Virus record (IMG/VR): IMGVR_UViG_3300032180_000020
Span: 1-41,617 of that record
Direction: 5' to 3' (one strand)
Source of the DNA: a virus
DNA length: 41,617 nt
The position numbers and the translations under genes were made by a program. Below are positions 11,398-40,865 of the stretch, piece by piece; positions within the stretch are counted from its first letter, which is position 1; the number at the start of each line of letters is the position of its first letter. The notes under the pieces were generated by a model. The model was given only the letters and a program-made list of their open reading frames with translations. It was not told where the DNA came from and did not search any database.

Positions 11398-11437
11398 TTC
11401 ATTGCCAGGCTGGGATGTTCATTGCCAGGCTGGGATG
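11398..11437. repeat. Perfect 20-bp tandem duplication at a gene end
   Basis: The 20-base unit beginning ttcattgccagg occurs at 11398-11417 and again, without change, at 11418-11437. On the coding strand the first copy encodes the end of the collagen-like protein (FIPAWQ and stop); the second copy follows the stop codon and leads into the ribosome site of the next gene. This is a duplicated gene terminus. Confidence 0.95.
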
Positions 11438-14476: not shown

Positions 14477-15805
14477 CTAGCTGACGCCGACGCGGAGGAT
14501 CCGCATCGCCTCGCCGAGCACCACCTGAGCGCCGATGCGCTTGCTCATCTTGAACACCACGTTGGGGTGCTGGGTCACCATGTCGCGGATGATCCGGATA
14601 CCGCGGCGATCGACGATGCGGTACGCCCGCTGCCAGTCCGCGAAGGCGACGACGGCGGCTCCGGTGGCGAAGGTGCCGGCGCCGAAACCGGTGGGGCCCG
14701 GCATCGCGAATGACTCGAACCACCTGTAGCCTGCCAAGAGTGAGGGGGCGCCCTCGCGGGTGCTCGGCTGCCACAGGTAGTTGCCGATCGCGTCCTTGAG
14801 TTGCATCAGGTAGCCGGCCGTCAGCCGCGAGAAGGTGGCGACGGCGTTGGCTGCGTACGGCGTCGGCAATGAGTAGAAGCAGGCGATCAGCGAGTCCATG
14901 CTGATGTCGGTGGCCAGCCCCGACGGCACGGTCGGGACCTCGCCGCCGTTCTGGTCGGACGCGGTGAGGAAGCCCTGCGGCTCGTTGGGCGCACCGCCCT
15001 GGCCACCGAAGACGAACCGCTGACCTTCCCAGACCGCAAAGTCGAGCTCGGCGTCGGCCCCGATCTCAGCTTCCAGATCGTAGAGAGAATCTTCCAGCAT
15101 GGTCAGCGTCACGCCCGGCTCGGCGGTGCTCTCGTAGATCGGGATCTCGAGCGCCTGGTACGTGTTCCGCGGCGTGTTCTCGGCGTTGCGGATCACCGCC
15201 TCGCGCTGGGACACGTCGCTGATCGTGAACCGCTGGGTCGAGCGCCGGATGATCCGCAGGCTCCCGGTGCCGACGGTGCTTACCCTGGCGTACTGGCGGA
15301 TCGGTGTGACCTGGAGGAGGCGGTGCATGATGCCCGCTTCCATGGTCGGCGCAGTCAGGTAGCCACCGGAGGGATCGAGGTCCGAGGAGAGCGCCTTCTT
15401 CTGCATCCCATAGAGCAGGTCGCGCTCCTGGAGAGACAGCGCTTGCTCGCCCTTGCGGAGGAAGGCGTCGAACGCCTTGTGCTCGTCCTCGCTTTCGACG
15501 TAGCCCTTGGTAGTGCCCTTCAGGATCGGCTCGCCATCGGCGCCCAACCGCGGCGCGCGGGCGAGCTTCTGGATCGCCAGCGAGGCGTTCTCGTTGGCGG
15601 CGCGCAGCATCTTGATCGCCCCCTCCTGCTCAACGATCCTGGCGCCCAAGTCCTGGAACTTTTTCTGGTACTCGGCGTTGTCCCGCTTCACCGCCTCGTA
15701 CTCCGAATGCAGGGTATGGAACTCCCCGGTCAACTGGTTGACGCCGTCGACGGCCTTCAGGATGTCGGCGGGCGAGGCGGCCGTAGCCGTAGCAGGGGTG
15801 GGCAT
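14477..15805 (-). CDS. Major capsid protein, HK97 fold
   Basis: A 442-residue protein with GAGGAG before the ATG. Residues about 10-110 form a charged coiled coil (delta/scaffold domain) expected to be cleaved off by the protease encoded just upstream. The rest has HK97-type features: GGYLTAPTMEAGIMHRL at the start of the mature part, TLTMLEDSLYDLEAEI in the spine/E-loop region, EGQRFVFGGQGGAPNEPQG, and a C-terminal VAFADWQRAYRIVDRRGI strand followed by FKMSKRIGAQVV. The order protease, capsid, accessory, connectors is canonical. High expression is expected. Confidence 0.95.
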   Translation of the reverse strand: MPTPATATAASPADILKAVDGVNQLTGEFHTLHSEYEAVKRDNAEYQKKFQDLGARIVEQEGAIKMLRAANENASLAIQKLARAPRLGADGEPILKGTTKGYVESEDEHKAFDAFLRKGEQALSLQERDLLYGMQKKALSSDLDPSGGYLTAPTMEAGIMHRLLQVTPIRQYARVSTVGTGSLRIIRRSTQRFTISDVSQREAVIRNAENTPRNTYQALEIPIYESTAEPGVTLTMLEDSLYDLEAEIGADAELDFAVWEGQRFVFGGQGGAPNEPQGFLTASDQNGGEVPTVPSGLATDISMDSLIACFYSLPTPYAANAVATFSRLTAGYLMQLKDAIGNYLWQPSTREGAPSLLAGYRWFESFAMPGPTGFGAGTFATGAAVVAFADWQRAYRIVDRRGIRIIRDMVTQHPNVVFKMSKRIGAQVVLGEAMRILRVGVS

Positions 15806-15820
15806 TCGCGATCTCCTCGA

Positions 15821-17326
15821 TTAGAGCGACTGCGGCGGCTGCGCTGAGCGCCAACCGACCAAATTGTTCACGGCGACCATGAGTTGGGCGACCTCTTCAG
15901 GCGACGCCACTTCCTCGGTGCCGGCGACCTCGCCGGCATCTTCCTCGGTGCCAGCTCCCTCGCCAGACACCGGCACATCCGGCGGGTCCTCGGCCGGCAA
16001 CCCGGCCACGACCCGCAGCGAATCCGCGGCGTCCTCGAACATGTCGATGGCCTCAAGGATCGTCTCCTCGGCCAGTTCGGCAAATGCCTCCGGTGAGGTC
16101 AGCCACTGGATCGCCCGTGGCAGCTGCCACAGCAACTGCCCGATGTCGTCGAGCGACTTCACGCCGACGACGGCCGCCTGCTCGTCCACCGGGAAGGGAA
16201 CGAAGCTGTACTCCTTGAGCTTGAGCGCCTTGAGGAACTGCGCCGACTGCCCCTGGAATGCGCCCCGTTCGGTGCCGCCAGGCCGCGGCCGGAAGCCGAT
16301 CGAGCAGTGAGTGAGGAGCTTGTCCTTGATGTCACAGAGCGTGTCGCGGCTCTTCTGCGAGGAACCGAAGCGAGAGACGGTCAGGCAACCCCTTGAGTCT
16401 TCCTCCATGTGGCGAGGGACGCAGACGAGCGAGTTCCGGTCATGGTTGTACAGCCCCTTGATCAGGCCGAGGTCCTCGATGATCGATTGCGCGAAAGCTC
16501 CCTTTATGGTCACATCGCCGTCGAGGTCCCGATGGCCGAAGGTGTTGATGTAGTGCGTGACCTCGGCCTTGCCGCTGTCCTCTTCCTTGACCTCGAACTC
16601 GACCTGCTGACTCTTGGTCAGGTAGGGCAGGCCGGCGACGCCGAAGGAGGGCGGCAAGGAGAGGTCCGGCGCGCTCTTCAGGCGGAATACCGGCTGCCAG
16701 AGGCCCTTGCCGGCGTCGCCCTTGCCGATCGACGGCCAGCGCTTGTGGACCTTGGCGGCAATGGCGTCGGCCTGGGCCTGGGTCAGCGTCTTGCCGACCT
16801 GCTGCGCCGAGCGGGCGAGTGCGTTCCTGGCCCGGTTCAGGGTGTCCATTGGGTAAGACCGATCGGGGCCGGCGAAGTCGGAGTCGGGGAGCTTGTTGCG
16901 CCGCCTGGCGTTGAGCGCCGCCTTCAGCGTCTCGACCGGGTCGGCGCCGAACGCCTGGGTCTGCATCTTCGTCCCCTGGGCGAGTCTCGCCCGCTGCGCG
17001 TGCCAGACGGCGCGGTCGTTGTGGTGCTGGATCTGGGCCTGGACATCAACCGGGCCAGCCCCGGCCATCGCACCGGAGCGCAGGGCGTCGGCGGCTGCGG
17101 CGTGAGCGGTAGCGGCTGCCCTGTGGGCCTTGGCGGCGGCGCTCTTGTCCTTCAAGCTGCCAGAGGCGAGGGCGCGGTCAGAGGCTGCTGCGGCCTCTGC
17201 GGAGCGCTTTTTGGCGGTGGCGGGAGCGGCGGTCCACTTCCCGGCGAGCCGAGGATGGCCGGGCGGAACTCCCTTGAGGTCCAATCCTTCCGCGCCGGCG
17301 AAGGCGAGCATGGTCTGCTCGGGCAT
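15821..17326 (-). CDS. Prohead maturation protease with long N-terminal domain
   Basis: A protein of 501 residues from the ATG at 17326 (MPEQTMLAFAGAEG). The frame is open to 17548, but that part is the repeat array, whose copies change frame; no strong ribosome site is seen. The protease domain (about residues 245-390) carries HK97/U35 features: INTFGHRDLDGDVTIKGAF, the His in LYNHD (295) and the Ser in THCSIGF (342), then KEYSFVPFPVDEQAAV. Ahead of it, residues 145-202 (LPDSDFAGPDRSYPM, RARNALARSAQQ) match a short module often fused to phage proteases. The Ala/Lys-rich first 130 residues may act in scaffolding. An acidic C-terminal region follows. It would cleave the capsid delta domain. 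Confidence 0.88.
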   Translation of the reverse strand: MPEQTMLAFAGAEGLDLKGVPPGHPRLAGKWTAAPATAKKRSAEAAAASDRALASGSLKDKSAAAKAHRAAATAHAAAADALRSGAMAGAGPVDVQAQIQHHNDRAVWHAQRARLAQGTKMQTQAFGADPVETLKAALNARRRNKLPDSDFAGPDRSYPMDTLNRARNALARSAQQVGKTLTQAQADAIAAKVHKRWPSIGKGDAGKGLWQPVFRLKSAPDLSLPPSFGVAGLPYLTKSQQVEFEVKEEDSGKAEVTHYINTFGHRDLDGDVTIKGAFAQSIIEDLGLIKGLYNHDRNSLVCVPRHMEEDSRGCLTVSRFGSSQKSRDTLCDIKDKLLTHCSIGFRPRPGGTERGAFQGQSAQFLKALKLKEYSFVPFPVDEQAAVVGVKSLDDIGQLLWQLPRAIQWLTSPEAFAELAEETILEAIDMFEDAADSLRVVAGLPAEDPPDVPVSGEGAGTEEDAGEVAGTEEVASPEEVAQLMVAVNNLVGWRSAQPPQSL

Positions 17327-17351
17327 CCTGGCGGGTAGTGTCGCCCCGCCT

Positions 17352-17370
17352 GGTGTGTACCGGTGTGTAC
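17352..17370. repeat. Tandem 9-bp repeat GGTGTGTAC
   Basis: The sequence ggtgtgtac occurs at 17352-17360 and 17362-17370, ten bases apart (one helical turn). It lies between the iteron-like array and the protease start. It may be part of the same control or binding region. Confidence 0.75.
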
Positions 17371-17380
17371 CGCTATCTGT

Positions 17381-17504
17381 TGGGGAAGAACGCCGCTGAC
17401 GCTGGGGAAAAACCCTCGCCGCTCTGGGGAAGAACCCAGGATCACTGGGGAAGAACCCATCTCGGGCCGGGAAAAACCTACTGCCGCTGGGGAAGAGGCG
17501 CCGG
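17381..17504. repeat. Iteron-like array: six copies of a TGGGGAAGAACCC-type motif
   Basis: Six related motifs begin at 17382, 17404, 17426, 17447, 17468 and 17489, spaced 22, 22, 21, 21 and 21 bp (two helical turns). The plus-strand consensus is TGGGGAAGAACCC; the copy at 17468 is CGGGAAAAACC and the outer two are degenerate on the non-GGGG side. All have the same orientation. The array fills the gap before the protease gene and runs into the 3' end of the helix-turn-helix gene. The spacing switches from 21 to 22, so the copies are not read in one frame; this argues for DNA-level sites such as protein-binding iterons. Each unit also carries a GGG-N5-CCC dyad. Confidence 0.85.
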
Positions 17505-17879
17505 ACGCTTGACCGCCTGCCGGCGGCGGCCCTCAAGCACGGCCGCATCCCAGGCGAGCTTGAACTCCTCGTTTGAGGCCGATGCCTTATAGGCCATCCG
17601 GCGGGTCACTCCGGCAAGATCGCTCGCCATCGTAATATCGTGGCCGGCTGCCAACTCAGCGAGGAACCGGATCTTCCAGCCGCCAGGCTCGGCAGCCTGA
17701 TCTGCCGCCTCTGCCTTCGACTCCGGTGGCCAGGTCGTGCGGAGCCACGCCTCGATGCCGGGGATGGGGAAGCCGTGGAGCTTCCACCACACGGCCGCTA
17801 CCAGGAGCGCAGCTCGCTCTCTGGCGATGCCGATGCGGCGCGCCTCGGTCAGGACGGTCGCGAGCTCGGGAAGGGTCAC
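17478..17879 (-). CDS. Helix-turn-helix DNA-binding protein next to the repeat array
   Basis: A 133-residue protein. I chose the GTG at 17879 (MTLPELATVLTEARRIG), which overlaps the previous stop as GTGA; a TTG five codons earlier is possible. The C-terminal half (WKIRFLAELAAGHDITMASD, LAGVTRRMAYKASASNEEF, KLAWDAAVLEGRRRQAVKR) has the helix-turn-helix pattern of phage small-terminase-like and transposase-like proteins: a growing helix, 'AA..AGV.R..aY', then 'F..AWd.A'. The basic C-terminus is encoded by DNA that contains the first repeat unit. It could be a regulator or a packaging-recognition protein acting on the adjacent array. Function is inferred. Confidence 0.72.
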   Translation of the reverse strand: MTLPELATVLTEARRIGIARERAALLVAAVWWKLHGFPIPGIEAWLRTTWPPESKAEAADQAAEPGGWKIRFLAELAAGHDITMASDLAGVTRRMAYKASASNEEFKLAWDAAVLEGRRRQAVKRPAPLPQRQ

Positions 17880-18475
17880 CAGGTCGTCGCCCAAGACGGG
17901 ATGACCTCGGCGCCGGTCTCGTCCCCGGGATCGCGGTCAGTCAGCGGATACTGAAAGCCGCAGTGCTTGCAGATGGCTTCAACGCCTGGATAGTCGCGAC
18001 AGAGCCATGGGCGATTCACGTAGGCGTCGCAGCGTCCGGTCGTCTCGTTCCAGTGACGGCAGGCGAAGACGGCGCGAATGTCTGGCCACTGCGCATCTCG
18101 CACCCAGGCGTAGGCGGTCCAGCCGGAGCGAATGGCGTCAGGTGCGATCCAGCCACGGCGGAGTCGCACGCTGATCTGACGCTCGCCGTTGTCGAAGGCG
18201 ACGGTGATTGATTCGCTGTTGGGCGCGGACTCAAAGTCGCGCCGCCAGTGGGTCGCTGCGCCACCGCCGTCCGCCGTCATGCCGAGCCGCTCTATCCTCG
18301 CGTCAGCCTCTTCCGGCGTCAGCGGGATCAACATCGCCAATAGAAGCGGTCCATCATCGCCCATCGGGTTGCCGAGCATCGCGTTGTACGGCTCGCCGCG
18401 TTGCACGGTCGCGAGCGTGCTCTCGTGGAGCGTGAAGACCGCGCAGCACTGCCCGGTGCAGCGACCCATGAGCAT
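17876..18475 (-). CDS. YkgJ-like cysteine cluster protein
   Basis: A 199-residue protein, MLMGRCTGQCCAVFTLHEST. It has a CxxxCC cluster at residues 6-11 and further Cys in FACRHWNETTGRCDAYVNRP followed by WLCRDYPGVEAICKHCGF. The arrangement 'C...CC ... C..Y..RP..CR.yP' is that of the YkgJ/UPF0153 family, a putative Zn- or Fe-S-chelating domain. The family has no firm biochemical function. Here the domain is interrupted by a middle segment of about 110 residues. It sits between small unknown genes and the helix-turn-helix gene and overlaps the latter's start. Confidence 0.7.
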   Translation of the reverse strand: MLMGRCTGQCCAVFTLHESTLATVQRGEPYNAMLGNPMGDDGPLLLAMLIPLTPEEADARIERLGMTADGGGAATHWRRDFESAPNSESITVAFDNGERQISVRLRRGWIAPDAIRSGWTAYAWVRDAQWPDIRAVFACRHWNETTGRCDAYVNRPWLCRDYPGVEAICKHCGFQYPLTDRDPGDETGAEVIPSWATTW

Positions 18476-20238: not shown

Positions 20239-20480
20239 GTCCGCCACTCGAAGTGCACCTCGGCGTCCTCGATCGGTACCGACTGCTCGCCATGTTCGTC
20301 CTCGACCACGCTGCCGACGGAGAGATCCAGGATGTGCCACCAGTCGTAGCGGGGATAATCGAAGCCGGTGTTGACCTTGTACACGGCGAGGGAGACCGTG
20401 CCGAAGAGGATGGCGCCGAGTAAGACAGCGAAAGCAACCGCTGTCCACTGCGAGTTCCAGAAGCGCTCAGTTCGCCTCAC
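20235..20480 (-). CDS. Small membrane protein
   Basis: An 81-residue protein from a GTG at 20480 overlapping the minor head gene stop as GTGA. One clear membrane span (WTAVAFAVLLGAILFGTVSL, residues about 12-32) follows a basic N-terminus. The remaining 45 residues are acidic and soluble. A single-span phage membrane protein could have a lysis, exclusion or signalling role; nothing specific shows which. Confidence 0.68.
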   Translation of the reverse strand: MRRTERFWNSQWTAVAFAVLLGAILFGTVSLAVYKVNTGFDYPRYDWWHILDLSVGSVVEDEHGEQSVPIEDAEVHFEWRT

Positions 20481-21478
20481 GACTCCTCCTCCCCCGCCGC
20501 CACCAGCATTTCAGAACAGTTGCACATTGGGTGTGCCGGAGGCCCATCGCCGGCATCTCCGTCCTCGTATTCCCCGTCAATCGGCCGCGTCATGCCGTCA
20601 AGGTCCGAGCACTCAGGACACGCCGTCGGTGTCGCCGTCCAGCGGACCTCGTACGCCTCGCCATCGAGCTTACCCTGGTCCACCGCATCGTTCCAGACAT
20701 CGTTCTGTCCAGAATTTCCGGCCTTGCTGGCCTCCGTCCTTGCGATCATCTCCCCGCGGTAGTCGAGCATCTCCTGGTAGCGCTGATCGATCGCATCCCG
20801 CATGGCGGCGTCGGACATCTCCGCTCGATCAGTCTGCGAGAGCGCCTCGATGTAGTTGTCCAGCACGACCGCCTGCCGCTCGTTGAGCCCGATGAAGCCA
20901 GCCATGGTCTGCGCGTCGAGCACCCGCGACACGTCGCGCCCGACATCGTACACGTCCTTGCCGCCGCGCTCCATGGCCGAGGAGAGCAGCTGCTGGATGC
21001 CGGCCTTGGTCTCGTCGGTCAGCGCCTGGGCGAGATCGGCCCCGTGCTCGGTAAGCCAGTCTGCGGCCTCGGAGCGGATGACATTGGCGTCAAGCGTCAC
21101 GGCGACGTGGGCCGGGAGCGTCCCGAGTCCAAGCTCAACGCCGGCGTTGAAGGGCGCCGCGAGCGGACCGGGCTTGTCTCCTGAGGCCGCCAGGCCGGCG
21201 ATGGCGGACTGCAAGTCGTCGAGGGGGATGGCGCCCAGCGCCTCGTCGAGGTCGCCGGAGGCCATGGCACGCTTCAGCTGTCGGAGGTCCACGCCGTCGA
21301 TGGCGTAGGCGATCGCCGCCAGGAAGGCGTCCTTGAGCCCGGGCGCGGCCGCGTCGATCGCCTCCCCCAGGGCATCGAGCAGCTCCTGGCGGCTGATCTC
21401 CTGGATGGCGCCGGCGTAGCCCTCGGAGGTGGCCTCCGGGGCGACGGATGAACCGGAGACGACGGAGGGGTCAGGCAT
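20477..21478 (-). CDS. Minor head protein (Mu F / SPP1 gp7-like)
   Basis: A 333-residue protein, MPDPSVVSGSSVAPEATSEG. The helical N-terminal two thirds leads into a typical C-terminal domain: EMIARTEASKAGNSGQNDVW, then RWTATPTACPECSDLDG and PAHPMCNCSEML near the end. The 'RTE', 'C..C..l.G' and 'HP.C.C' elements are hallmarks of the phage Mu F-like/SPP1 gp7 family, minor capsid proteins that bind the portal and enter the head. In most phages this gene directly follows the portal gene; here about 2.6 kb of small genes lie between them. Confidence 0.85.
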   Translation of the reverse strand: MPDPSVVSGSSVAPEATSEGYAGAIQEISRQELLDALGEAIDAAAPGLKDAFLAAIAYAIDGVDLRQLKRAMASGDLDEALGAIPLDDLQSAIAGLAASGDKPGPLAAPFNAGVELGLGTLPAHVAVTLDANVIRSEAADWLTEHGADLAQALTDETKAGIQQLLSSAMERGGKDVYDVGRDVSRVLDAQTMAGFIGLNERQAVVLDNYIEALSQTDRAEMSDAAMRDAIDQRYQEMLDYRGEMIARTEASKAGNSGQNDVWNDAVDQGKLDGEAYEVRWTATPTACPECSDLDGMTRPIDGEYEDGDAGDGPPAHPMCNCSEMLVAAGEEES

Positions 21479-24065: not shown

Positions 24066-25775
24066 CTACTCCTCCACACGCTCCGGCCAGATCCGCCCAC
24101 CCGGCGCCCCACTCGACTTGTGCCAGCCCTGCCCACGCTGCTTCTTGACCACCAGCCGTCGCTGGCCACCGCGGCCGGTCTGCCACTCGTACCGCTGGCG
24201 TTCGGTCATCTCGCTGGCCCCCTCGGGCAGCCGGTCGGCGATCCGCTTCTTCCGCAGGGCATGCAGCTCGCGGAGCGCCTTGCTCGTCGCGCCCGCGAGA
24301 GCTGCGGTGGCATCCGCGCCAGCGCCCTCCGCAGCCGGTCCGGCCTGCGGGTCGGCGACGACGGCTGCGGCGCCCCCCGTCGGCGCGGAGGTCGGCGGGC
24401 CACCTGGCATCGCGGTGACGCCGCCCTTCTTGCCGACTGTGATCGCACCGGCGAGGTCGCGCTTGAGCGGCACCAGGGTGGCTAGAATGAACGGCACGTC
24501 CCCACCATCCTGGTTTGAGACCGGGAGGTCGAGGAGCGTCAGCGCATCGTTGAGCGGCACGCCCGAGGACACAGCGTCCTTGAGCGCCGTCAACTTCTTG
24601 CCGATGTCGTCCCTGAGCGCGATGATCCCCGAGGTGTCGTAGGTGATGTAGCGGGTACGCTGCTCCTCGCGGCTGATCAGCGAGAGGTTGAGCGCCTCGC
24701 GGATGATGTCGATGAGTGGCATGACCGCGAAGTGGTACATCGCGCGATGCGCGAGCTCTGAGTTTGCGTACGTTTTCCCGGCGCGGTCGAACATCGCCGG
24801 GTCGATGTGGAGGACCATGGCCATCTCGTCGCGGAGGACGCCGCGAGAGTTGAACCAATCCATCTCCGTCGGCTTCATGCCCAGCGCCTGCCACGTCACC
24901 TCGCCGGCAGTGACGAAGGGCAGCCCGCGCTTGTCCGGCCCGACATAGGCGTCAAAGATCTCGGACCGCCACGCTTCAAGTTGGTCCTCGCCCATGGGCG
25001 CCTTGTCGATGAACATCCCCGCTGGGACGCCGAGATTGCGCGAGAGCGCCCGCTGGCCGTCGAGCATGGCGTTGTCGGCGTCGACGACGCGTGCCAGGAC
25101 CTTGAGCGGAGCGACGCCCCAGTAGGAATTGATCGGGTCCTCCATCATCGAGTGCACCAGGTCATCCGCCCGCCAGACGCGACGATTGGCGCCGTCCCAG
25201 TACAGGTAGCCCAAGATCCACTCCGTCGGGTGCGGGATCGGCTGAACGAAGACCGGCGACTCGGGCCAGAGCTCCAAGACCTTGCCGCGGTCGCGACCGC
25301 GAGCATCTGGGTCTGGGTTCTCGAAATACTTGCCGAAGAGACCGTTGCCGCCGCAGAGCATGTGGAGGACGTGGCGATAGATGATGCGGCCGCGCGACAT
25401 CTTTGGGTTCGGCCGCTCAAGCAAGTTCTCCAGGTCCGAGCTCTCAACCGGCTCCCAGCCGCCATCATCGGCTAGCTGCTGCTCGATCCAGGGGATGCCG
25501 GAGGCGAGGGTAGCGATGCGGCTGGCGCCGGCGTAGAAGACGGATGACGAGTAGTAGCCCTCGCGGACGCCCTTCTCCGTGTTCCACTCCGGGTAGATCG
25601 GGATGCCCGGCCAGAACGGGTAGGCGACATGTCGTGGGTCGTATGGCGCGACGATCGGCTGCGGCCAGGAGTAGGCGTCCACGCCGCTGTAGAGCGAGAC
25701 GAGGCCGCCAGCGTTGGCGGACACCGGGTAGGAGCCGGAGGCCGGCGGGAGCATGAGTTGGGCGGTGCCTGGCAT
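24066..25775 (-). CDS. Portal protein, HK97 type
   Basis: A 569-residue protein, MPGTAQLMLPPASGSYPVSA, with AGGAACGAGCG before the ATG. Family features: YYSSSVFYAGASRIATLAS near residue 75 (wing/stem entry), LLERPNPKMSRGRI, HMLCGGNGLFGKYFENPD, HSMMEDPINSYWGVAPLKV, a long stem helix region, and MFIDKAPMGEDQLEAWR leading to NSELAHRAMYHFAVMPLID, all typical of the HK97/SPP1 portal superfamily. The C-terminal 110 residues are Gly/Ala-rich then basic. It forms the dodecameric DNA channel at the unique vertex and docks the terminase and connector. Confidence 0.92.
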   Translation of the reverse strand: MPGTAQLMLPPASGSYPVSANAGGLVSLYSGVDAYSWPQPIVAPYDPRHVAYPFWPGIPIYPEWNTEKGVREGYYSSSVFYAGASRIATLASGIPWIEQQLADDGGWEPVESSDLENLLERPNPKMSRGRIIYRHVLHMLCGGNGLFGKYFENPDPDARGRDRGKVLELWPESPVFVQPIPHPTEWILGYLYWDGANRRVWRADDLVHSMMEDPINSYWGVAPLKVLARVVDADNAMLDGQRALSRNLGVPAGMFIDKAPMGEDQLEAWRSEIFDAYVGPDKRGLPFVTAGEVTWQALGMKPTEMDWFNSRGVLRDEMAMVLHIDPAMFDRAGKTYANSELAHRAMYHFAVMPLIDIIREALNLSLISREEQRTRYITYDTSGIIALRDDIGKKLTALKDAVSSGVPLNDALTLLDLPVSNQDGGDVPFILATLVPLKRDLAGAITVGKKGGVTAMPGGPPTSAPTGGAAAVVADPQAGPAAEGAGADATAALAGATSKALRELHALRKKRIADRLPEGASEMTERQRYEWQTGRGGQRRLVVKKQRGQGWHKSSGAPGGRIWPERVEE

Positions 25776-28970: not shown

Positions 28971-30551
28971 CTACCCTCCTTGCGCCACCCTCGGCGCTGC
29001 TCGCCGGAAACTGTAGTGCCTCGGCATCTTCGCGCTCAGCGCTGCCAGTTCGTAAAGCGACCATACGAGCGCATCGAGATGACCTGGACTATGCTCACCC
29101 TTCCTGCCGGTGTAGGTCATCAATTCTTCTTCCAACTTCCGCAGGTGATCGTAAGTGAGGCCACCTCGCCCAGAGTTCGCCTTTGGCTCCCAACGGGCTA
29201 CGTGGTGGACGCGACCCTGCTCATAAAGCGCTGCCACCGGTTCTGCCCGAGCCATCTTGTTGGTCGCCGCGTGGATCTTGCGTACCGGCAAGTTGATGTT
29301 GGCTCCGCGAAGCGTCGATTCCACGAGGTCTCCGCCATTGTTGACCTCGGCCACAAGCCGATCGCCGCCAATCTCGTCCATCAGAGCAGCTGCGGACCGA
29401 GCCCACTTCTCCGCGGGCATGATTCCCGACCAATCCTCGACCACGTAAAAGTGCGCCGGTTCCGCTTTCGCGGGCGGGATCACGGCCCGCACCAACCCGC
29501 GCTTGACGCCGATGATGCCGCACTCGTCCGAGGCCGAGGTGGCCGTCACGGATGGGTCCAACCCGACCACGGCACGATCAACCTCCTCCTCCCACCAGTC
29601 GCCTTCCTCCCCAGCGGGCGCCCTGACGCGGTGCGCCGGAACCTGCTCAACGCGATGGTCGGCGATCATTCCCCAAGTCCAGAGCGCGCCTGGGACGTCC
29701 TCGAGCAGCTCGGCGGCGAGCTCCTGGCGCCCTAGGCGGGTGCCCTCAAGCGGCTCGACCACGTTCTCGATGAACTCCTGGGCGAGGTTGGCGCGGTTCT
29801 CGTAGGTGTGCCCGCGGGTCACGATCGTCGACGGCTTCGCCATCAGCTGACGCAGAAGCTTAAGCGGCTTCGGCGTTGTGGTGATGATGATCTGTGGGTG
29901 GCCGATACGAGTCATCAGGCCAATGTTCGACCAGATCGTGCCGGTTGAGTCGATCTCGCCGAGGTTCTTGCAGGCCGCGAGCTCACCGGCCCAGAAGCCG
30001 TCGAGGTTGGGGCCACGGAACCGATCAGGTTTGTCGGCGGAGAAGAGTAGTGCGCGCGCGCCGTTCGGCCAAGTCAGATATCTCTTCGATGGTTCGTAGT
30101 GCGGCCGGAACGCTGGATCAGAGCAGGCGAGGATGCCTGTCGGTCCCTCGATCATGACGGATCGAAGGTCACCAGCGGTCGGCGCAGAGATGCCGAACAG
30201 GTTCCATTTGCGCGATTCCACCATGTCGAGGACGGCGTTCGATCCACTTAGATCTTTTCCCCAACCGCGCCCCGCCATTACGAGCCAAACATAAAACGGC
30301 GCCGTCGGCATAAATTGCCCATTGCTGCGCTCGTCTTTGTCTAGTGCCGGATTCCGCGGCCGACCGGCGCCAGGCTGACCGACAGCGTGCCAGCGGACGC
30401 GGCGATCAGTGTCTGGCAGCGCGAGGTGAGGATCAGGCGCCTGGTCGGGAGTGACGACCTGCCGTGCCCGCAGATGACGGGTGAGCACCGCGCCGATGCC
30501 CGGCAGAAAGGAGCGCACTGGATCCGCGGTGAAGGCGGGGAGGCGCGCCAT
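28971..30551 (-). CDS. terL: Terminase large subunit
   Basis: A 526-residue protein from the ATG at 30551 (MARLPAFTADPVRSF), which overlaps the previous stop as TGATG; the longer open frame to 30755 overlaps the radical SAM gene. The ATPase domain has a Walker A-like GRGWGKD (94-100), a Walker B position FWAGE (186-190) and the coupling motif ITTTPKP (223-229). The nuclease domain has Asp332 in VVGLDPS, Glu402 in LVAEVNNGGDLV and Asp493 in HLDALVWSLY. It cuts concatemers and pumps DNA through the portal. Walker A normally ends in Thr/Ser and Walker B normally has Asp before Glu; here they are Asp and Gly, although the nuclease residues are intact. Confidence 0.92.
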   Translation of the reverse strand: MARLPAFTADPVRSFLPGIGAVLTRHLRARQVVTPDQAPDPHLALPDTDRRVRWHAVGQPGAGRPRNPALDKDERSNGQFMPTAPFYVWLVMAGRGWGKDLSGSNAVLDMVESRKWNLFGISAPTAGDLRSVMIEGPTGILACSDPAFRPHYEPSKRYLTWPNGARALLFSADKPDRFRGPNLDGFWAGELAACKNLGEIDSTGTIWSNIGLMTRIGHPQIIITTTPKPLKLLRQLMAKPSTIVTRGHTYENRANLAQEFIENVVEPLEGTRLGRQELAAELLEDVPGALWTWGMIADHRVEQVPAHRVRAPAGEEGDWWEEEVDRAVVGLDPSVTATSASDECGIIGVKRGLVRAVIPPAKAEPAHFYVVEDWSGIMPAEKWARSAAALMDEIGGDRLVAEVNNGGDLVESTLRGANINLPVRKIHAATNKMARAEPVAALYEQGRVHHVARWEPKANSGRGGLTYDHLRKLEEELMTYTGRKGEHSPGHLDALVWSLYELAALSAKMPRHYSFRRAAPRVAQGG

Positions 30552-31519
30552 CAGAGCGCAGCCTCCGCGAACGGGCGAGGCTCGCCGAGGCGGGGAAGAT
30601 AGTCGCGCAGCTCGAGCGAGCGCCAGAGATGGCGGTTGAAATAGCGAGCGAAGTCGCGGAGGAGTGCCAACGTCCAGTCGTGGCGGATCATCACCTGGTC
30701 GCGGCTGAGAGCGTTCAGCGGCATCACCGGCTGGCAGTAGGGCTCGCCGCCCCATTCGATCACCTTGCGTGCACGCTCGTAGCAGCTAGCGAGCGGCTCG
30801 TTGCCGATGAGAACATAAACCTGCTTCCGACGCGCAGACTCGCCAGCCAGGGTGCCCATCATGCGCTTGACGTGGAACGCCTCGCTGGCGGTATCGAGAG
30901 CGAAGCGCCAGGGACCAATTAGGTGTGGGCGCCAGCGCTGATAGGTCTCCTCGGTGAAGGAACGCGGCTCGAAGCCGCTGTTGGCATCGACGAGACGCAC
31001 CCCGGCCGCGGCATAGCGGGCCAGGATCTCAACCTGGAAGTCGTCGGGGAGCGCCGAGAGGTTGTTGTCGCAAAGGATCGGCGCCGGCTGGAAGTCGTGA
31101 TCCAGCGTGAAAGTCAAACCCTCGATCCGCGGCACCACGCAGAACCAGCAGTTCACCGGGCAGCCACGAGAGGCGAAGGTCATCCGGTAGTCGCCGCGCT
31201 GGCGCTCGAAGCGCCAGTCTAGGCCGGTCGTCGCTTCGAGCCCCGTCTCCCGCAGCCACCACTTCGCGAGGGCGAAGATGCCAGGGCCGCCGACGCTCAC
31301 CTCGGCGTGCGATCGAACGCGCAGAGCGATCTCTCGGGCAATCGGCGCATGCCATGAGAAGACCAGTGAGAGATAAACGTGATCGAAGCCGCACGCGAAC
31401 AGCCCGGGGTCGCCCTGCTCGACCGTGACGCTGTGGCCCTCCGCGACCAGCCAGTCCCGGAGCTTGAGCGCACCCAGGTTGTAGTGAGGGGCCGAGCAGT
31501 TGACGACGATGGCGCGCAT
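30551..31519 (-). CDS. Radical SAM enzyme, phage-encoded
   Basis: A 322-residue protein, MRAIVVNCSAPHYNLGALKL. The N-terminal 110 residues have an alpha/beta pattern like the cobalamin-binding-type domain of many radical SAM proteins (VYLSLVFSW, VSVGGPGIFAL) but lack the cobalamin DxHxxG motif. The cluster motif is Cys120, Cys124 and Cys127 in ASRGCPVNCWFCVVPR, the canonical CxxxCxxC that holds a 4Fe-4S cluster and binds S-adenosylmethionine. A TIM-barrel-like remainder includes LCDNNLSALPDDF and QVYVLIGNEP. The substrate cannot be told. It lies between the terminase small-subunit candidate and TerL and overlaps TerL by one base. Possible roles include DNA or tRNA modification or virion peptide modification. 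Confidence 0.87.
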   Translation of the reverse strand: MRAIVVNCSAPHYNLGALKLRDWLVAEGHSVTVEQGDPGLFACGFDHVYLSLVFSWHAPIAREIALRVRSHAEVSVGGPGIFALAKWWLRETGLEATTGLDWRFERQRGDYRMTFASRGCPVNCWFCVVPRIEGLTFTLDHDFQPAPILCDNNLSALPDDFQVEILARYAAAGVRLVDANSGFEPRSFTEETYQRWRPHLIGPWRFALDTASEAFHVKRMMGTLAGESARRKQVYVLIGNEPLASCYERARKVIEWGGEPYCQPVMPLNALSRDQVMIRHDWTLALLRDFARYFNRHLWRSLELRDYLPRLGEPRPFAEAAL

Positions 31520-31850: not shown

Positions 31851-32612
31851 TCAATTCACCTCAGGCGGTGGAACCAGCTGCTGCAACTCCGCCGCAAACT
31901 CGCCAAGTGCGGCGCGCCCACTCTCCGCCGCCTCCGCAACCGGAATGCCACGCGCCGCCATCTTGCTTTCCATCATCGTGATTACCCCTGCTGCCAAGTC
32001 CGCAAACCTAAACGTGAGAGCTTGGAGTTGCTCGATTGTTACCATCGCCTGTCGCTTGGCGATGATCCGCATTTCAGACTCCGCCAACTTCCGCCGTAGG
32101 TCCGTCGTCTTTCGTACCTGCTCCTCGGCCTCGAGCGCAGCGCGCCGGCGTTGTTCTGCGGTCACGCCTTCCGCGAGGACGTTCCTGAGTCGACGCAGAA
32201 TCTCCTCGACGGCATCCTTGTCGTCGTTCGGTAGCGCTGTCAGGAGTTCCTTGAAGATTGTCTGGGCCGAGAGCAGCGCCGCGCCAGCGGCGGCTTCGTC
32301 CAATCCTTGGCCGATACGCTGGAACTGCATCGACAGCACCGTTGCAGCGATCGCTTTTTCCTCCCGGAGCTCGCTTGCCTCTGGATCGGCCATGAATCGC
32401 GCGTGCCGCTCGCGTAGGGCTTCCGGAACGAAGGCCGCAAACTTGCTACGGTTACCATGTTTGTAACCGGGAGCTGCTGTGCCTCGCGCAGCCCTTCCGT
32501 TGTGGATGCGACAGCGCTCTCGACCACGGATCGGCCACTCAGTGCAGAACTGTCCCGGCTTCTTACGGAGCGGACTGCCGCACTTACCGGGAATAGGATG
32601 GTCAGAGGGCAT
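31851..32612 (-). CDS. Terminase small subunit-like protein
   Basis: A 253-residue protein from the ATG at 32612 (MPSDHPIPGKCGSPLRKKPG); an ATG at 32672 would add 20 residues with poor codon composition. The N-terminus (KCGSPLRKKPGQFC, RGRERCRIHNGRAARG) has the Cys/His pattern often present at the start of phage packaging-associated proteins, then a Lys/His/Gly linker (YKHGNRS). Residues 60-245 are all helical with a long coiled coil. Position three genes before TerL fits a packaging initiator, though a helix-turn-helix gene at 17.5-17.9 kb is a rival. The call rests on context and pattern. Confidence 0.6.
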   Translation of the reverse strand: MPSDHPIPGKCGSPLRKKPGQFCTEWPIRGRERCRIHNGRAARGTAAPGYKHGNRSKFAAFVPEALRERHARFMADPEASELREEKAIAATVLSMQFQRIGQGLDEAAAGAALLSAQTIFKELLTALPNDDKDAVEEILRRLRNVLAEGVTAEQRRRAALEAEEQVRKTTDLRRKLAESEMRIIAKRQAMVTIEQLQALTFRFADLAAGVITMMESKMAARGIPVAEAAESGRAALGEFAAELQQLVPPPEVN

Positions 32613-32658
32613 AGGGTAGCGTCGGTGTCTTAGGTGCGCGGGCTGCCTTCCTACTGGT

Positions 32659-33375
32659 TCAGCCGCCATCCCGCTTCGACTCGCCGCGCACCTCGACGAG
32701 CCAACCTTCACGCAGCCGGTCCAGGAGCGGGAGGTTGGCCTTCGCGATCAACTCAAGCGCTAGGTTAGTCGTCGCAACTGTCGGTCGCTCGTGCTCGTAC
32801 CGATGATAGAACAACTCAGCCACCACCTCCCAGGCCGCGGCCGCCGCGTGACCTCGCCCGAAGTCGTCAACGAACAGCCACGACACCCGTTGATACCGCT
32901 CAATCTCCCCGGACCCAGCGAAAACCATGGCCGGGACCTGCGCGGCCCGCACCCACAAGCAGCCCGTCTTGCGGCCGAGCGCTTGCCACGCGATCTCCGC
33001 TGCGGCGAAGCTCTTGCCGACCCCCGCCTCGCCGTACAGCAGCACTGACCACGGTTCACCGCGCCAAGCGAGGAGATCACGCCCTTCAAGGACTGGCCAT
33101 CCAGGCGGAGCGAGCTGCGGCGCGAAGGGATGCTGGACGCGGGGAGGGACGCCAACCTTAGCGAGCCTAACGGCGCGCACCAAGTCCGGGTTCTCCTCCG
33201 CCCGTCGACGCTCAACGGCTGCTTGGCAACTCGCGCAGGTATCGCCAGCTACGGAGACGGCATCAAGGCAGCCGCCAGCGCAGGGATGCCAGGTTGGGCC
33301 GTCCGGGAGCGGGAGCCCCGCTGCGGCGAACTCCTCTGCGGCTTTGACAGCGAAGAGTTTCGGCTTCTCGCTCAC
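32659..33375 (-). CDS. dnaC: DnaC-type helicase loader ATPase
   Basis: A 238-residue protein, MSEKPKLFAVKAAEEFAAAG. An N-terminal Cys cluster (Cys32, 36, 47, 50) probably binds Zn. The AAA+ domain has Walker A GEAGVGKS (115-122), Walker B SWLFVDDFG (165-173) and sensor-1 ATTN (201-204), followed by a short C-terminal part. This architecture is that of DnaC/IstB-like loaders that deliver the replicative helicase to origin DNA opened by the phage initiator, whose gene is immediately upstream and overlaps it as ATGA. No phage helicase gene is in the window, so host DnaB may be used. Confidence 0.9.
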   Translation of the reverse strand: MSEKPKLFAVKAAEEFAAAGLPLPDGPTWHPCAGGCLDAVSVAGDTCASCQAAVERRRAEENPDLVRAVRLAKVGVPPRVQHPFAPQLAPPGWPVLEGRDLLAWRGEPWSVLLYGEAGVGKSFAAAEIAWQALGRKTGCLWVRAAQVPAMVFAGSGEIERYQRVSWLFVDDFGRGHAAAAAWEVVAELFYHRYEHERPTVATTNLALELIAKANLPLLDRLREGWLVEVRGESKRDGG

Positions 33376-34382
33376 GGTGGCTTGACCCCTTTCGACTTCT
33401 CGATCGCTCGACGGAGGATGTTCTCGGTGGCCTCAGCGGAGGCGACAGGAAGGGGGACATGCCGACTCGACCCGGGCAGCGATACCTGCCGACCATTGCC
33501 GGCGGCCTCGCTCTGAACCGCCCTGAAGATGTAGCCCTCGCCCTTGCTGAGACAACCACGTGGCCCCTCGTCCTCAAGTAGCCGGCACAGTCTCTCAGCA
33601 TCACCATTGAAGACCTTTAGCCAACTCCCGATCACACCTGGAAGTGGGCGCCTCGCGTCGAAGCGGTCATAGATCCCCCAGGCTCGCTCAACTACTTTCT
33701 GCTGCGCTGTGAGCTTCTTTGCAGGGGCATCGGCGGGCGGCTTTGCCGCCGGAGTCGTAGACTCCGGTATTGCTTCTTCTTTGGAGGAAGAAGAAGAAGA
33801 AGAAGAGGTATCCGACTTTTGTGCATTTGCATCAAGTGGTTCTAGACTCAGCGATTTACAGGTTGTTTCAGCGCCGTTTTCGGCCTCATTTTCGAGGTCA
33901 TTTTCGGGGACTCGGAATGCGACAGTTGGAACCATCGGAGTCCGACTTTTGTGCATTTGCACTGCATTTGCTCTCGCGGCCTTTGTTTTCCATCGCTTAC
34001 GTGAGCTTGCGCTCCTAGACCTCCGCACTACCATGGCCGAGAGATAGCCCTTCACCAACCCCACCTGCCAAAGCCTCCCGCCACGTTCCCGCCAAGCCTC
34101 CTGAACCTCAAGCCAGATCTCATCCCATCCTGCGGGATGGTGGCAAAGAGCGCTGAGCTTACGCTGGTCGTTAGGCAAGCTACATGGTGGCCGCTGCCTC
34201 CATGCGACGCCAAGCAAGTGATGGTGAACGCCACGAGCCGCCCAACCCATCATCATCACCACGTCATCGCTATACCATTGGCTAAAGTACCACTGCACGG
34301 CTGGGGGGGCTGCGGCATCGAAGCCAGGCTCCTCCTGAAGCGCGATCACTTGGTCAACGAGCATCTCCCAACTGTTCGCCAT
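33372..34382 (-). CDS. Replication initiation protein, DUF1376-like
   Basis: A 336-residue protein, MANSWEMLVDQVIALQEEPG. The N-terminal part (VQWYFSQWYSDDVVMMMGWA, WRQRPPCSLPNDQRKLSALC) matches the DUF1376/YdaU-like winged-helix region of phage replication proteins. A basic linker, an acidic/Asn-rich segment and a run of eight Ser (SSSSSSSS, from a GAA repeat) follow. The C-terminal domain (KLTAQQKVVERAWGIYDRFD, PGVIGSWLKVFNGDAERLCR) is a typical partner. It likely binds the origin and recruits the loader encoded next. The AT-rich middle of the gene contains direct repeats that may be the origin, as in lambda O. Confidence 0.82.
   Translation of the reverse strand: MANSWEMLVDQVIALQEEPGFDAAAPPAVQWYFSQWYSDDVVMMMGWAARGVHHHLLGVAWRQRPPCSLPNDQRKLSALCHHPAGWDEIWLEVQEAWRERGGRLWQVGLVKGYLSAMVVRRSRSASSRKRWKTKAARANAVQMHKSRTPMVPTVAFRVPENDLENEAENGAETTCKSLSLEPLDANAQKSDTSSSSSSSSKEEAIPESTTPAAKPPADAPAKKLTAQQKVVERAWGIYDRFDARRPLPGVIGSWLKVFNGDAERLCRLLEDEGPRGCLSKGEGYIFRAVQSEAAGNGRQVSLPGSSRHVPLPVASAEATENILRRAIEKSKGVKPP
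33811..33971. repeat. Direct repeats inside the replication gene, candidate origin
   Basis: A 21-bp sequence starting tccgacttttgtgc is perfectly repeated at 33811-33831 and 33941-33961, and a 9-bp piece (tgcatttgc) recurs at 33963-33971. The copies are 130 bp apart, not a multiple of three, and are read in different frames (ANAQKSD and VQMHKSRT). The constraint is therefore on DNA, not protein. Two copies of tcattttcg (33886, 33898) lie between them in AT-richer sequence. This resembles origin iterons and the adjacent unwinding region in lambdoid initiator genes. Confidence 0.65.
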
Positions 34383-37791: not shown

Positions 37792-38354
37792 CTCATCTCC
37801 TGCGTCTTCAATGGGGAGAATTGCTGCTCGCACAGAATCTCGTTGATGAGGTCATCGCCATTTGCGGCCGCGACCGCCACCAGCGCCCGCGCCGGAACCT
37901 CCTTGGACGTGAACCCTCGCCACTCACGCGGGAAGGTGAGCATGCAGAAGGTCGCGAGAGCTTCACCCACCGTCAGCGTCGGCCAGCATCGCAGGGTCGC
38001 CCCGACGCCAATAGGGGCGGAGACATCGAAGTAGCCGCGACCGTACAGCGGTGGGCTCGGGCCAATCTCAACGGCCAGCTCCCAGCCGCCGCCGTCAGGC
38101 GGTTCAAGGTAGCGCGCCTGGGTATAGAGAGCGGCTGGACAGACAACGGCGAAGACGACGGTTTGCAGCGCCTCATCCCAGCAGCAACCCTGATCAGAGC
38201 GCAAAGAGTCTGCGTCCTCGCCAGCATCGATCAAGTGACGCCGGAGGTCACGGTAGGTGTGGGAGTCGCCGATTGAAACATGCCACTCGCGGTAGCCAGC
38301 ACCCCCGAGAAGGCCAGGCGCTTGGCGTTTCCAGATACGGATGCTGTCGCTCAT
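37788..38354 (-). CDS. Hypothetical protein, 188 residues
   Basis: The start at ATG 38354 (MSDSIRIWKRQAPGLLGGAG) is preceded by GAGGGGGG; a GTG at 38429 overlapping the upstream stop would add 25 residues. Mixed alpha/beta with several Cys (SDQGCCWDEALQTVVFAVVC, TLRCWPTLTVGEALATFCML). It is coupled to the exonuclease. It may be a single-strand DNA or recombination accessory, but no motif shows it. Confidence 0.68.
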   Translation of the reverse strand: MSDSIRIWKRQAPGLLGGAGYREWHVSIGDSHTYRDLRRHLIDAGEDADSLRSDQGCCWDEALQTVVFAVVCPAALYTQARYLEPPDGGGWELAVEIGPSPPLYGRGYFDVSAPIGVGATLRCWPTLTVGEALATFCMLTFPREWRGFTSKEVPARALVAVAAANGDDLINEILCEQQFSPLKTQEMR

Positions 38355-38425
38355 GTTACCCCCCTCGCCCACGGAGCGATCGCGGGCTGCTCTTAGGACC
38401 TCCTTGGGTGTTCTCGCGGCGCAGC

Positions 38426-38884
38426 TCACGTCGGCCTCCCTTCACCCTGTGGGATCTCGAAGAGGTGGAAGACCAGGGCGCCGCTGGCCAACTGAAAGGT
38501 GCCGATGAACCGGCCGGCGAAGTCAACGGGCTGGCCAGTCCCGACGAGCCGGAAGCGCCGCGGCACCGCCGGTTCCTCGGTTGAGATGAGCGCCCAAATG
38601 CAGGGCGTTTCGCGCTGCACCTGCACGGAGAGCACTTCGGCGCCCGCTGGCAGTGCAATCTCGAAGGCGCCTTCGACTAGAAACGGGTACTTGAACACTC
38701 TCTTCATGATCAGTTCTCCTCTCCCGCCTGCCGGCAGGGCCTGCGGTTCAAGCCATGCCAGCCGATGCTGGCCGCGGGCTTGGTCGATGGGCGTTGGCTG
38801 CCAGACATCGAGCCTGGCCGCCGCTTCGAGGGCGATCTGGGCGAGCAGTGACATGACCTGGTGCGGGCGGAGGGGAAGGCGCAT
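38426..38884 (-). CDS. DUF7352-like protein with upstream in-frame extension
   Basis: The well-recognised part starts at the internal ATG 38707 (MKRVFKYPFLVEGAFEIALP), preceded by GGAGAA. Its 93 residues (EVLSVQVQRETPCIWALIST, GRFIGTFQLASGALVFHLFE) match the small beta-rich phage family DUF7352. The same frame is open back to an ATG at 38884 (MRLPLRPHQVMSLLAQIALE) with good codon composition and no stop, so the extension may be an N-terminal helix or a former separate gene. A different-frame 32-residue ORF (38808-38710, MSGSQRPSTKPAASIGW) overlaps it. Biochemical role unknown. Confidence 0.7.
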   Translation of the reverse strand: MRLPLRPHQVMSLLAQIALEAAARLDVWQPTPIDQARGQHRLAWLEPQALPAGGRGELIMKRVFKYPFLVEGAFEIALPAGAEVLSVQVQRETPCIWALISTEEPAVPRRFRLVGTGQPVDFAGRFIGTFQLASGALVFHLFEIPQGEGRPT

Positions 38885-38890
38885 CGTCAG

Positions 38891-39694
38891 CTAACCCCTC
38901 AACAGCGTTATTGCGACATCCGCACCAGGCGCCAGGGCGGCTGCCGCCATGAGTAGCGCGAGGGCGGTCGCCGTACCGACGAGCAGGATGGTCGATCTGC
39001 AAATCTCGCGCCTGGTCATCGCCGCCAGCGGCTGCGCCCGCTTCCATTCGACGGCCACTTCGATTCCGCCGGCGAGCGTGAGCACGAAGAAGATAGCGAA
39101 GCCGCCCATCAGCGCTAGCCCCATGGAAAGGAACATGCCAGCAGACAAGAAGAGCATCCCGGTATAGCGATCGGGAGACGAGTAGACGATCGATTTTACA
39201 ATCCTGCCGCCGTCAAGAGGATTGATCGGGAGCAGATTAAAGAGATTGATCATCGCCGTCATGCTCGCCATCGCCGCAACCTCCGGTATCCTTGTCATTA
39301 AGTAAAAGAGCGCGGCAGCAGCGGCCAATGCGCCACCCCAAATCGGGCCAGCGATGGCGATGACGGCCTCGGCATTGCGCGACGGAAAACTGTCTTTGGA
39401 TACCGCCGCTGCGCCGAGGAACGGTATGAAGTAGATTCCCTTCGTCCTGAGCCCGTAACGCTTCATCGCCCAGATATGTCCGCTCTCGTGGACGAAGAGT
39501 GCGACGGCCAGCGCCAAGGAAAACCTCCAGGTGAACATATAGGCATAGGAGGCAATGGACAACGCCGCCAACGTTACCTTCCCGAGCTTCATAAGCTTAA
39601 AGAGCTTTAACAGCCAAGGGAGGGCCTTCGCCCCCACTTTGCCACCGAGAGCGAAGATGCCCGCGCGCGACGGTCGCTGATTCTTATCGTTCAT
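38891..39694 (-). CDS. Site-2-protease-like membrane metalloprotease (M50)
   Basis: A 267-residue polytopic membrane protein, MNDKNQRPSRAGIFALGGKV, ATGA-coupled to the previous gene. The zinc motif HEXXH is His69-Glu70-Ser-Gly-His73 in VALFVHESGHIWAM, and the third ligand lies in NLLPINPLDGGRIV (Asp161). Around five to six hydrophobic segments surround them. These are diagnostic of M50/S2P intramembrane proteases, which cut membrane-embedded regulators such as anti-sigma factors. No PDZ or CBS domain is present. Codons appear somewhat less GC-rich than neighbours, suggesting acquisition from a cellular host. The substrate is unknown. Confidence 0.87.
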   Translation of the reverse strand: MNDKNQRPSRAGIFALGGKVGAKALPWLLKLFKLMKLGKVTLAALSIASYAYMFTWRFSLALAVALFVHESGHIWAMKRYGLRTKGIYFIPFLGAAAVSKDSFPSRNAEAVIAIAGPIWGGALAAAAALFYLMTRIPEVAAMASMTAMINLFNLLPINPLDGGRIVKSIVYSSPDRYTGMLFLSAGMFLSMGLALMGGFAIFFVLTLAGGIEVAVEWKRAQPLAAMTRREICRSTILLVGTATALALLMAAAALAPGADVAITLLRG

Positions 39695-39990: not shown

Positions 39991-40865
39991 CCCTCCTCGG
40001 CTGCGGTAGCGCTCTGCTCGCCCACCAAGGGCTTTCCGTCAATCGTCACCTCGAAAATCGGCGCGATAACGCGCGGCGCCTTGCACTTCTCTGGATAATC
40101 GCCATCGGGATGAACGACGATTTCAGCCAGCGCGACGGTACAAGCTACGTAGTGCGTCGCGGTCGGGCAGAAGCGCAGGGCCATGACGGGATGCGGAGAG
40201 AAGTGCATACCACCTCCGCACTCGGGCACTGGATTCCAGTCCGGCTCTACCGGCATGTCGCCGGGCTTGTAAGTGATCACTTTCTTCCAACTCCCGCGCC
40301 AGTCGTCGTCGACCGCCTTATAGAGGACGACCGTTCCATCAGGCAGCGGATCGACGCCGTAGTACTCGCACCACTCGGCGCCGGTCTTGGGCCGCTCTCG
40401 TCGGACCACGTACCCGCCGCCATCGACGCTGATACCGGTACCGGTCGCCAGTACGGCGACCTTCGGGCCGGCCTTCAACTCGATTGCAGCGGTTCCGAAC
40501 TGCTCGGCGGCGACCTGGGCGAATGCAGAGGCCACCACGTGCGGCTGGCTCGACACCCAGGCCTCCACGTGCGGCTGGCTCGACCCCCAGGCCACCACGT
40601 GCGGCTGGCTCGACCCCCAGGCCACCACGTGCGGCTGGCTCGACCCCCAGGCCTCCACGTGCGGCTGGCTCGACCCCCGGGCCTCCACGTGCGGCTGGCT
40701 CGACCCCCAGGCCACCACGTGCGGCTGGCTCGACCCCGCGGTCCTAACCTTCGTCGCCTTGCTGATGTCAAGCCGCGCATTGCTTACGATCTCTGGCACT
40801 TCATCGGCGGCGAGAGCCGCATCGAATTCCGCTTGGTCCCTTACCTTCCGAATAGTCTTGCTCAC
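39987..40865 (-). CDS. Tandem-repeat protein with DUF7666-like C-terminal domain
   Basis: A 292-residue protein from the GTG at 40865 (MSKTIRKVRDQAEFDAALAA), preceded by AAGGAGGAACC; the frame to 41078 is open but lacks coding character. Residues 45-115 consist of seven 10-residue repeats with core SSQPHV and alternating VAW, EAW and EAR ends, likely a small beta-helix or solenoid. A linker (ELKAGPKVAVLATGTGISVD) leads to a C-terminal domain (LPDGTVVLYKAVDDDWRGSW, ECGGGMHFSPHPVMALRF) that resembles DUF7666, known from phages in similar repeat contexts. It may be a regulatory or immunity-related protein; no enzyme motif. Confidence 0.75.
   Translation of the reverse strand: MSKTIRKVRDQAEFDAALAADEVPEIVSNARLDISKATKVRTAGSSQPHVVAWGSSQPHVEARGSSQPHVEAWGSSQPHVVAWGSSQPHVVAWGSSQPHVEAWVSSQPHVVASAFAQVAAEQFGTAAIELKAGPKVAVLATGTGISVDGGGYVVRRERPKTGAEWCEYYGVDPLPDGTVVLYKAVDDDWRGSWKKVITYKPGDMPVEPDWNPVPECGGGMHFSPHPVMALRFCPTATHYVACTVALAEIVVHPDGDYPEKCKAPRVIAPIFEVTIDGKPLVGEQSATAAEEG
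40531..40740. repeat. Seven tandem 30-bp repeats in coding sequence
   Basis: Seven consecutive 30-base units (first 40531-40560, last 40711-40740) share the core ccacgtgcggctggctcgac. They differ mainly at gcc-a/t-cc near the unit start and in the final bases. Each unit encodes ten residues with SSQPHV. There are no spacers, so this is not a CRISPR array. Confidence 0.95.

Follow-up and report, generated by a model that had tools for sequence, protein, structure and literature searches.

The window analysed here is a 41.6-kb virus record with a GC content of 66%, and its late genes all lie on the minus strand. Amongst these are a candidate TerS gene (31851-32711), identified through a weak HGGxSTG match, the TerL gene (28971-30755), the portal gene (24066-25775) and the genes of a Mu-F-like protein (20477-21478) and a CxxCxxCC protein (17876-18475). 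The gene order that follows on the same strand is a gene for a TerS-type helix-turn-helix (HTH) protein of 138 aa (17478-17894, although translation may in fact begin downstream of 17894), an array of short repeats, the gene of a prohead protease (Peptidase_S78, Pfam E=6e-15; 15821-17326) directly downstream of the array, and the gene of an HK97-type major capsid protein (Pfam E=3e-46; 14477-15805). An inverted repeat, GGCGGG-N9-CCCGCC, is located at 17330-17350. Most of it falls inside a block (17298-17345) that also spans the protease start codon and is near-identical in the related phage described below. No sigma-70-like promoter was found in the array region; the promoter type of the host may differ. 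Elsewhere in the late region, an open frame between the candidate TerS and TerL genes (30551-31519) matched a radical-SAM family (phrog_9298, E=3e-15), and in the related phage the candidate TerS and TerL genes are adjacent without this frame between them. The window also contains seven 30-bp tandem repeats, 96% alike, within an open frame (40529-40737), and a perfect 20-bp tandem duplication (11398-11437) at the end of a tail-fibre/collagen-like gene.

The repeat array comprises TGGGGAAnAACC in five good copies and a sixth, degenerate copy, all in the same orientation, with start-to-start distances of 22, 22, 21, 21 and 21 bp. On the plus strand, the sites are TGGGGAAGAACGC at 17381-17393, which is unchanged in the related phage, TGGGGAAAAACCC at 17403-17415, TGGGGAAGAACCC at both 17425-17437 and 17446-17458, and CCGGGAAAAACCT at 17467-17479, where the motif copy reads CCGGGAAAAACC and the site overlaps the stop codon of the upstream HTH gene. 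The degenerate copy, TGGGGAAGAGGCG, lies within the 3' end of the HTH gene (17488-17500) and is poorly kept in the relative. Since the late genes around the array are on the minus strand, the motif in transcript sense is TTnTTCCCCA. When the whole window was searched motif-blind for 10-mers of any sequence with at most one mismatch and at least four copies at 19-24 bp, this array was the only chain returned, and the same 10-mer criterion found a comparable chain in none of 60 Markov-simulated windows. The repeat array before the protease and capsid genes is real, and the same-orientation arrangement at 21-22 bp spacing reported in the first-pass annotation was thereby confirmed. The annotation had counted six copies, of which five are convincing and the sixth is only degenerate. 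The tandem repeat that it had placed beside the array is also present, with a unit of 10 bp and not 9 bp (GGTGTGTACC twice, 17352-17371), and is partly conserved in the relative, where the counterparts on the same strand are GGTGTCTACC and TCTGTCTACC.

Searches of viral contigs with the protease, capsid, HTH and portal proteins identified one close relative among the matches listed, IMGVR_UViG_3300032174_000002 (85,090 bp), a contig with a 127-bp end repeat that was taken as circular. The capsid proteins of the two phages are 82% identical, the proteases 78% and the HTH proteins 74%, within a range of 46-87% for head and terminase proteins across the shared module, a term that is likewise based on these two genomes, from which the arrangement is known. 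A scan of the viral collection with a looser motif gave no additional relative with this gene order among the matches listed, and a search for prophages with the capsid, covering about 1,080 genomes from three phyla, gave no capsid above 38% identity at the thresholds used.

Related phages had been proposed as the place to look for the motif, and five boxes were indeed found at the same HTH-protease junction of the relative, spaced by 22, 21, 21 and 21 bp. The HTH stop codon marks the start of the array in both phages (the counterpart of the fifth site, TGGGGAAGAACTA, also touches it in the relative), and the conserved block at the protease start follows immediately downstream of the array. 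Between window and relative, 43 of 50 positions in the box cores are identical, as compared with 14 of 33 in the spacers (Fisher p=7e-5), the spacer value being the better of two ungapped alignments and thus slightly flattering the spacers. The two arrays differ by a 1-bp indel between boxes, and the 21-22 bp spacing is still kept. High-scoring motif sites occur only at 17381-17480 in the window and only at 11854-11952 in the relative, besides single weaker matches. Altogether, these observations support a constraint that would act at the DNA level, on sequence and helical phase, and not on an encoded peptide.

The first-pass annotation had reached a constraint on DNA or RNA by arguing that the change of spacing breaks any reading frame. 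That argument was insufficient alone, because a 575-aa minus-strand frame is open through the array in the window and coding was therefore not excluded. It was the comparison with the relative that carried the DNA part of the claim: a stop codon within the corresponding frame, together with the 1-bp indel, excludes a conserved peptide, and the coding repeat (FFP peptide) was rejected. The annotation had envisaged relatives keeping the peptide without the DNA motif, or the gene order without the array. Neither was seen: in the relative the motif is retained and the frame interrupted, and this phage, the sole relative of this gene order that was found, does carry the array.

The array is very probably a docking site for a DNA-binding protein, judging from its sequence and conservation. 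The two phages have structural genes in common, including the HTH gene, and no detected initiator homologue in common, which suggests that the binder would come from the shared structural module or from the host. The most likely binding protein, and the best candidate, is the product of the adjacent HTH gene. This protein carries a C-terminal TerS-type helix-turn-helix, and the proteins of both phages match the phrog_4044 terminase small subunit over the HTH portion only (E=0.0098 for the window, 2.3e-4 for the best member). Unlike in the TerS profile, no oligomerisation domain follows the HTH. The protein had no Pfam match, no significant match in a PDB sequence search and no match in cultured phages, and a structure model of mediocre quality (pLDDT 70) gave no significant structural match in Foldseek.

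We favour a single-locus array on double-stranded DNA that would be bound cooperatively by the adjacent HTH protein and would control the protease-capsid unit, and we assign this reading a probability of about 0.4. The five TGGGGAAnAACC boxes, two helical turns apart (21-22 bp), would each form part of a protein-binding site, and at this spacing the boxes would lie on the same side of the helix, where an oligomeric protein could occupy them cooperatively. The HTH gene is co-conserved with the array (74% identity of its product) and encodes an HTH with relatives among terminase small subunits, and on these two grounds cooperative binding by its product is proposed. The bound array would then govern transcription of the unit that opens here with the head protease and capsid genes, an output favoured by the position of the array before these genes. 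The only family resemblance of the HTH protein, however, is to terminase small subunits, which speaks against transcription control and would fit packaging.

That resemblance favours a role in packaging, in which either the TerS-type HTH protein or the TerL-adjacent candidate TerS would bind the boxes as a pac- or cos-like site and guide the terminase, so that packaging would begin in the vicinity of the conserved inverted repeat. We regard this as the foremost of the alternatives, if on balance an unlikely one. The array abuts the gene of the TerS-type HTH protein, both phages' HTH proteins match the terminase small subunit family, and the inverted repeat beside the boxes is conserved. In phage SPP1, the pac site likewise has sets of direct repeats that overlap the gene of the small terminase (PMC4737164), and the SPP1/SF6 pac site and small terminase thus resemble the array in that direct repeats adjoin a TerS-type HTH gene. 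The SPP1/SF6 pac site lies before terS-terL (PMC4737164), whereas the array lies before the protease gene, and unlike in SPP1/SF6 a second TerS candidate is found beside TerL in the window. This candidate, 46% identical in the relative, occupies the position usual for TerS, immediately upstream of TerL and about 14 kb from the array, and the C-terminal position of the HTH without a following oligomerisation domain is also at odds with a TerS function of the array's neighbour. The 127-bp end repeat of the relative, if its contig is indeed circular, is compatible with headful packaging and weakly against fixed ends at the array.

The array could represent the iterons of a replication origin, to which a phage initiator would bind, a reading we consider rather improbable. 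The array has tandem same-orientation boxes at about two helical turns, as do the iterons of lambda O, of HTH_36 phages and of Rep_3 plasmids, and replication iterons with very similar boxes (GGGGAAnnAC) lie in or beside initiator genes of other viruses and plasmids. An unbiased pattern search returned several non-microsatellite arrays of this type, at about two turns, in or next to initiator genes: L009 at a Phage_rep_O gene (E=5e-23), L007/L101 and L010 at HTH_36 protein genes, L061 at a Rep3 gene (E=2e-28) and, assigned by eye only, one beside a large primase/helicase-like gene on a 64-kb contig. The similarity of the boxes was partly built into the search pattern and can also be explained by such arrays being common: origins of phages and plasmids in general often have arrays spaced by about two turns, so that a similar box constitutes weak evidence for an origin.

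Unlike replication iterons, the array is located between late structural genes (its neighbours are the HTH, protease and capsid genes, with no cognate initiator adjacent), at a distance from the window's putative initiator gene (33372-34382, 336 aa), which was called by its position beside a DnaC-like loader only and has no family match. No homologue of this putative initiator was found in the relative, which nevertheless keeps the array and has a repeat-bearing gene of its own beside a DnaC-like loader, weakly resembling ribbon-helix-helix proteins. An adjacent AT-rich unwinding region is also lacking at the array, near which the lowest GC content over 60 bp is 0.55, as compared with a window minimum of 0.38 at 33768, inside the putative initiator gene. 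The absence of a detected shared initiator and the position of the most AT-rich stretch thus disfavour a simple replication origin at the array. The segment 33700-33970, which holds this lowest-GC 60-mer along with a 21-bp direct repeat whose exact copies lie at 33811 and 33941, and with repeats of 12 bp, is a candidate origin and appears better placed than the array. In the relative, the ribbon-helix-helix-like gene (38026-39111, equivalent to L093:18026-19111) contains an 11-bp repeat array (CCGGTGCCCTG).

Replication initiator genes belonging to several unrelated families contain or adjoin iterons of the GGGGAA type at 20-24 bp (L007, L009, L010, L018, L061, L088 and L120, with L018, L088 and L120 assigned mainly by eye). 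The 64-kb contig, IMGVR_UViG_3300038701_003016 (G002, equivalent to L002/L003; 64,159 bp, 38% GC), carries two adjacent GGGGAAGAACCC arrays at 22 bp, downstream of a 776-aa gene that by eye is primase/helicase-like. These arrays span the contig ends, from which the genome is probably circular, and they possibly represent its replication origin. No homologue of the HTH protein was found in this contig. Because tandem arrays at 20-23 bp are numerous, a chance match is plausible, and the exact GGGGAAGAACCC arrays were not taken as independent support.

A variant that combines elements of expression and packaging appears doubtful: the TerS-type HTH protein, an orphan in the sense that its gene belongs to the head module and is distinct from that of the candidate TerS next to TerL, would recognise its own array and couple capsid expression or procapsid assembly to genome selection for packaging. 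More doubtful still is a role in which the neighbouring HTH protein has no part and the array serves a host protein as its set of binding sites or acts as a partition-like (centromere) site. A binder encoded elsewhere than in the shared module, for instance by the host, would account equally well for conservation despite different early genes, but no partition module was recognised in the window and a late structural operon is an unusual place for a centromere.

An RNA element in the protease leader, whether the repeated GGG-N5-CCC mini-hairpins raised in the first-pass annotation or an RNA-protein site, is very improbable: the near-identical inverted repeat immediately before the protease start would suit it, but the GGG-CCC pairs are broken in several boxes with none compensated (no box pair changed on both sides between window and relative), the leader folds no better than shuffles (z=0.27) and Rfam gave no match above threshold, which together make hairpins unlikely. 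The stoperator-like element raised alongside them was rejected, since the motif forms one cluster at one locus in each genome and is not dispersed. Mycobacteriophage stoperators (cluster A-type repressor sites) share with the array that they are short asymmetric sites in a phage genome, and they are bound as DNA, but they comprise many sites distributed across the genome (PMC9283540).

In phages, origins and repressor regions are the places where iteron-like arrays are expected. One that is conserved within the head operon, next to a terminase-like HTH gene, would instead point to an undescribed control or packaging step in uncultured GC-rich phages, and the array and the HTH gene together provide a prediction of binding between one protein and one DNA.
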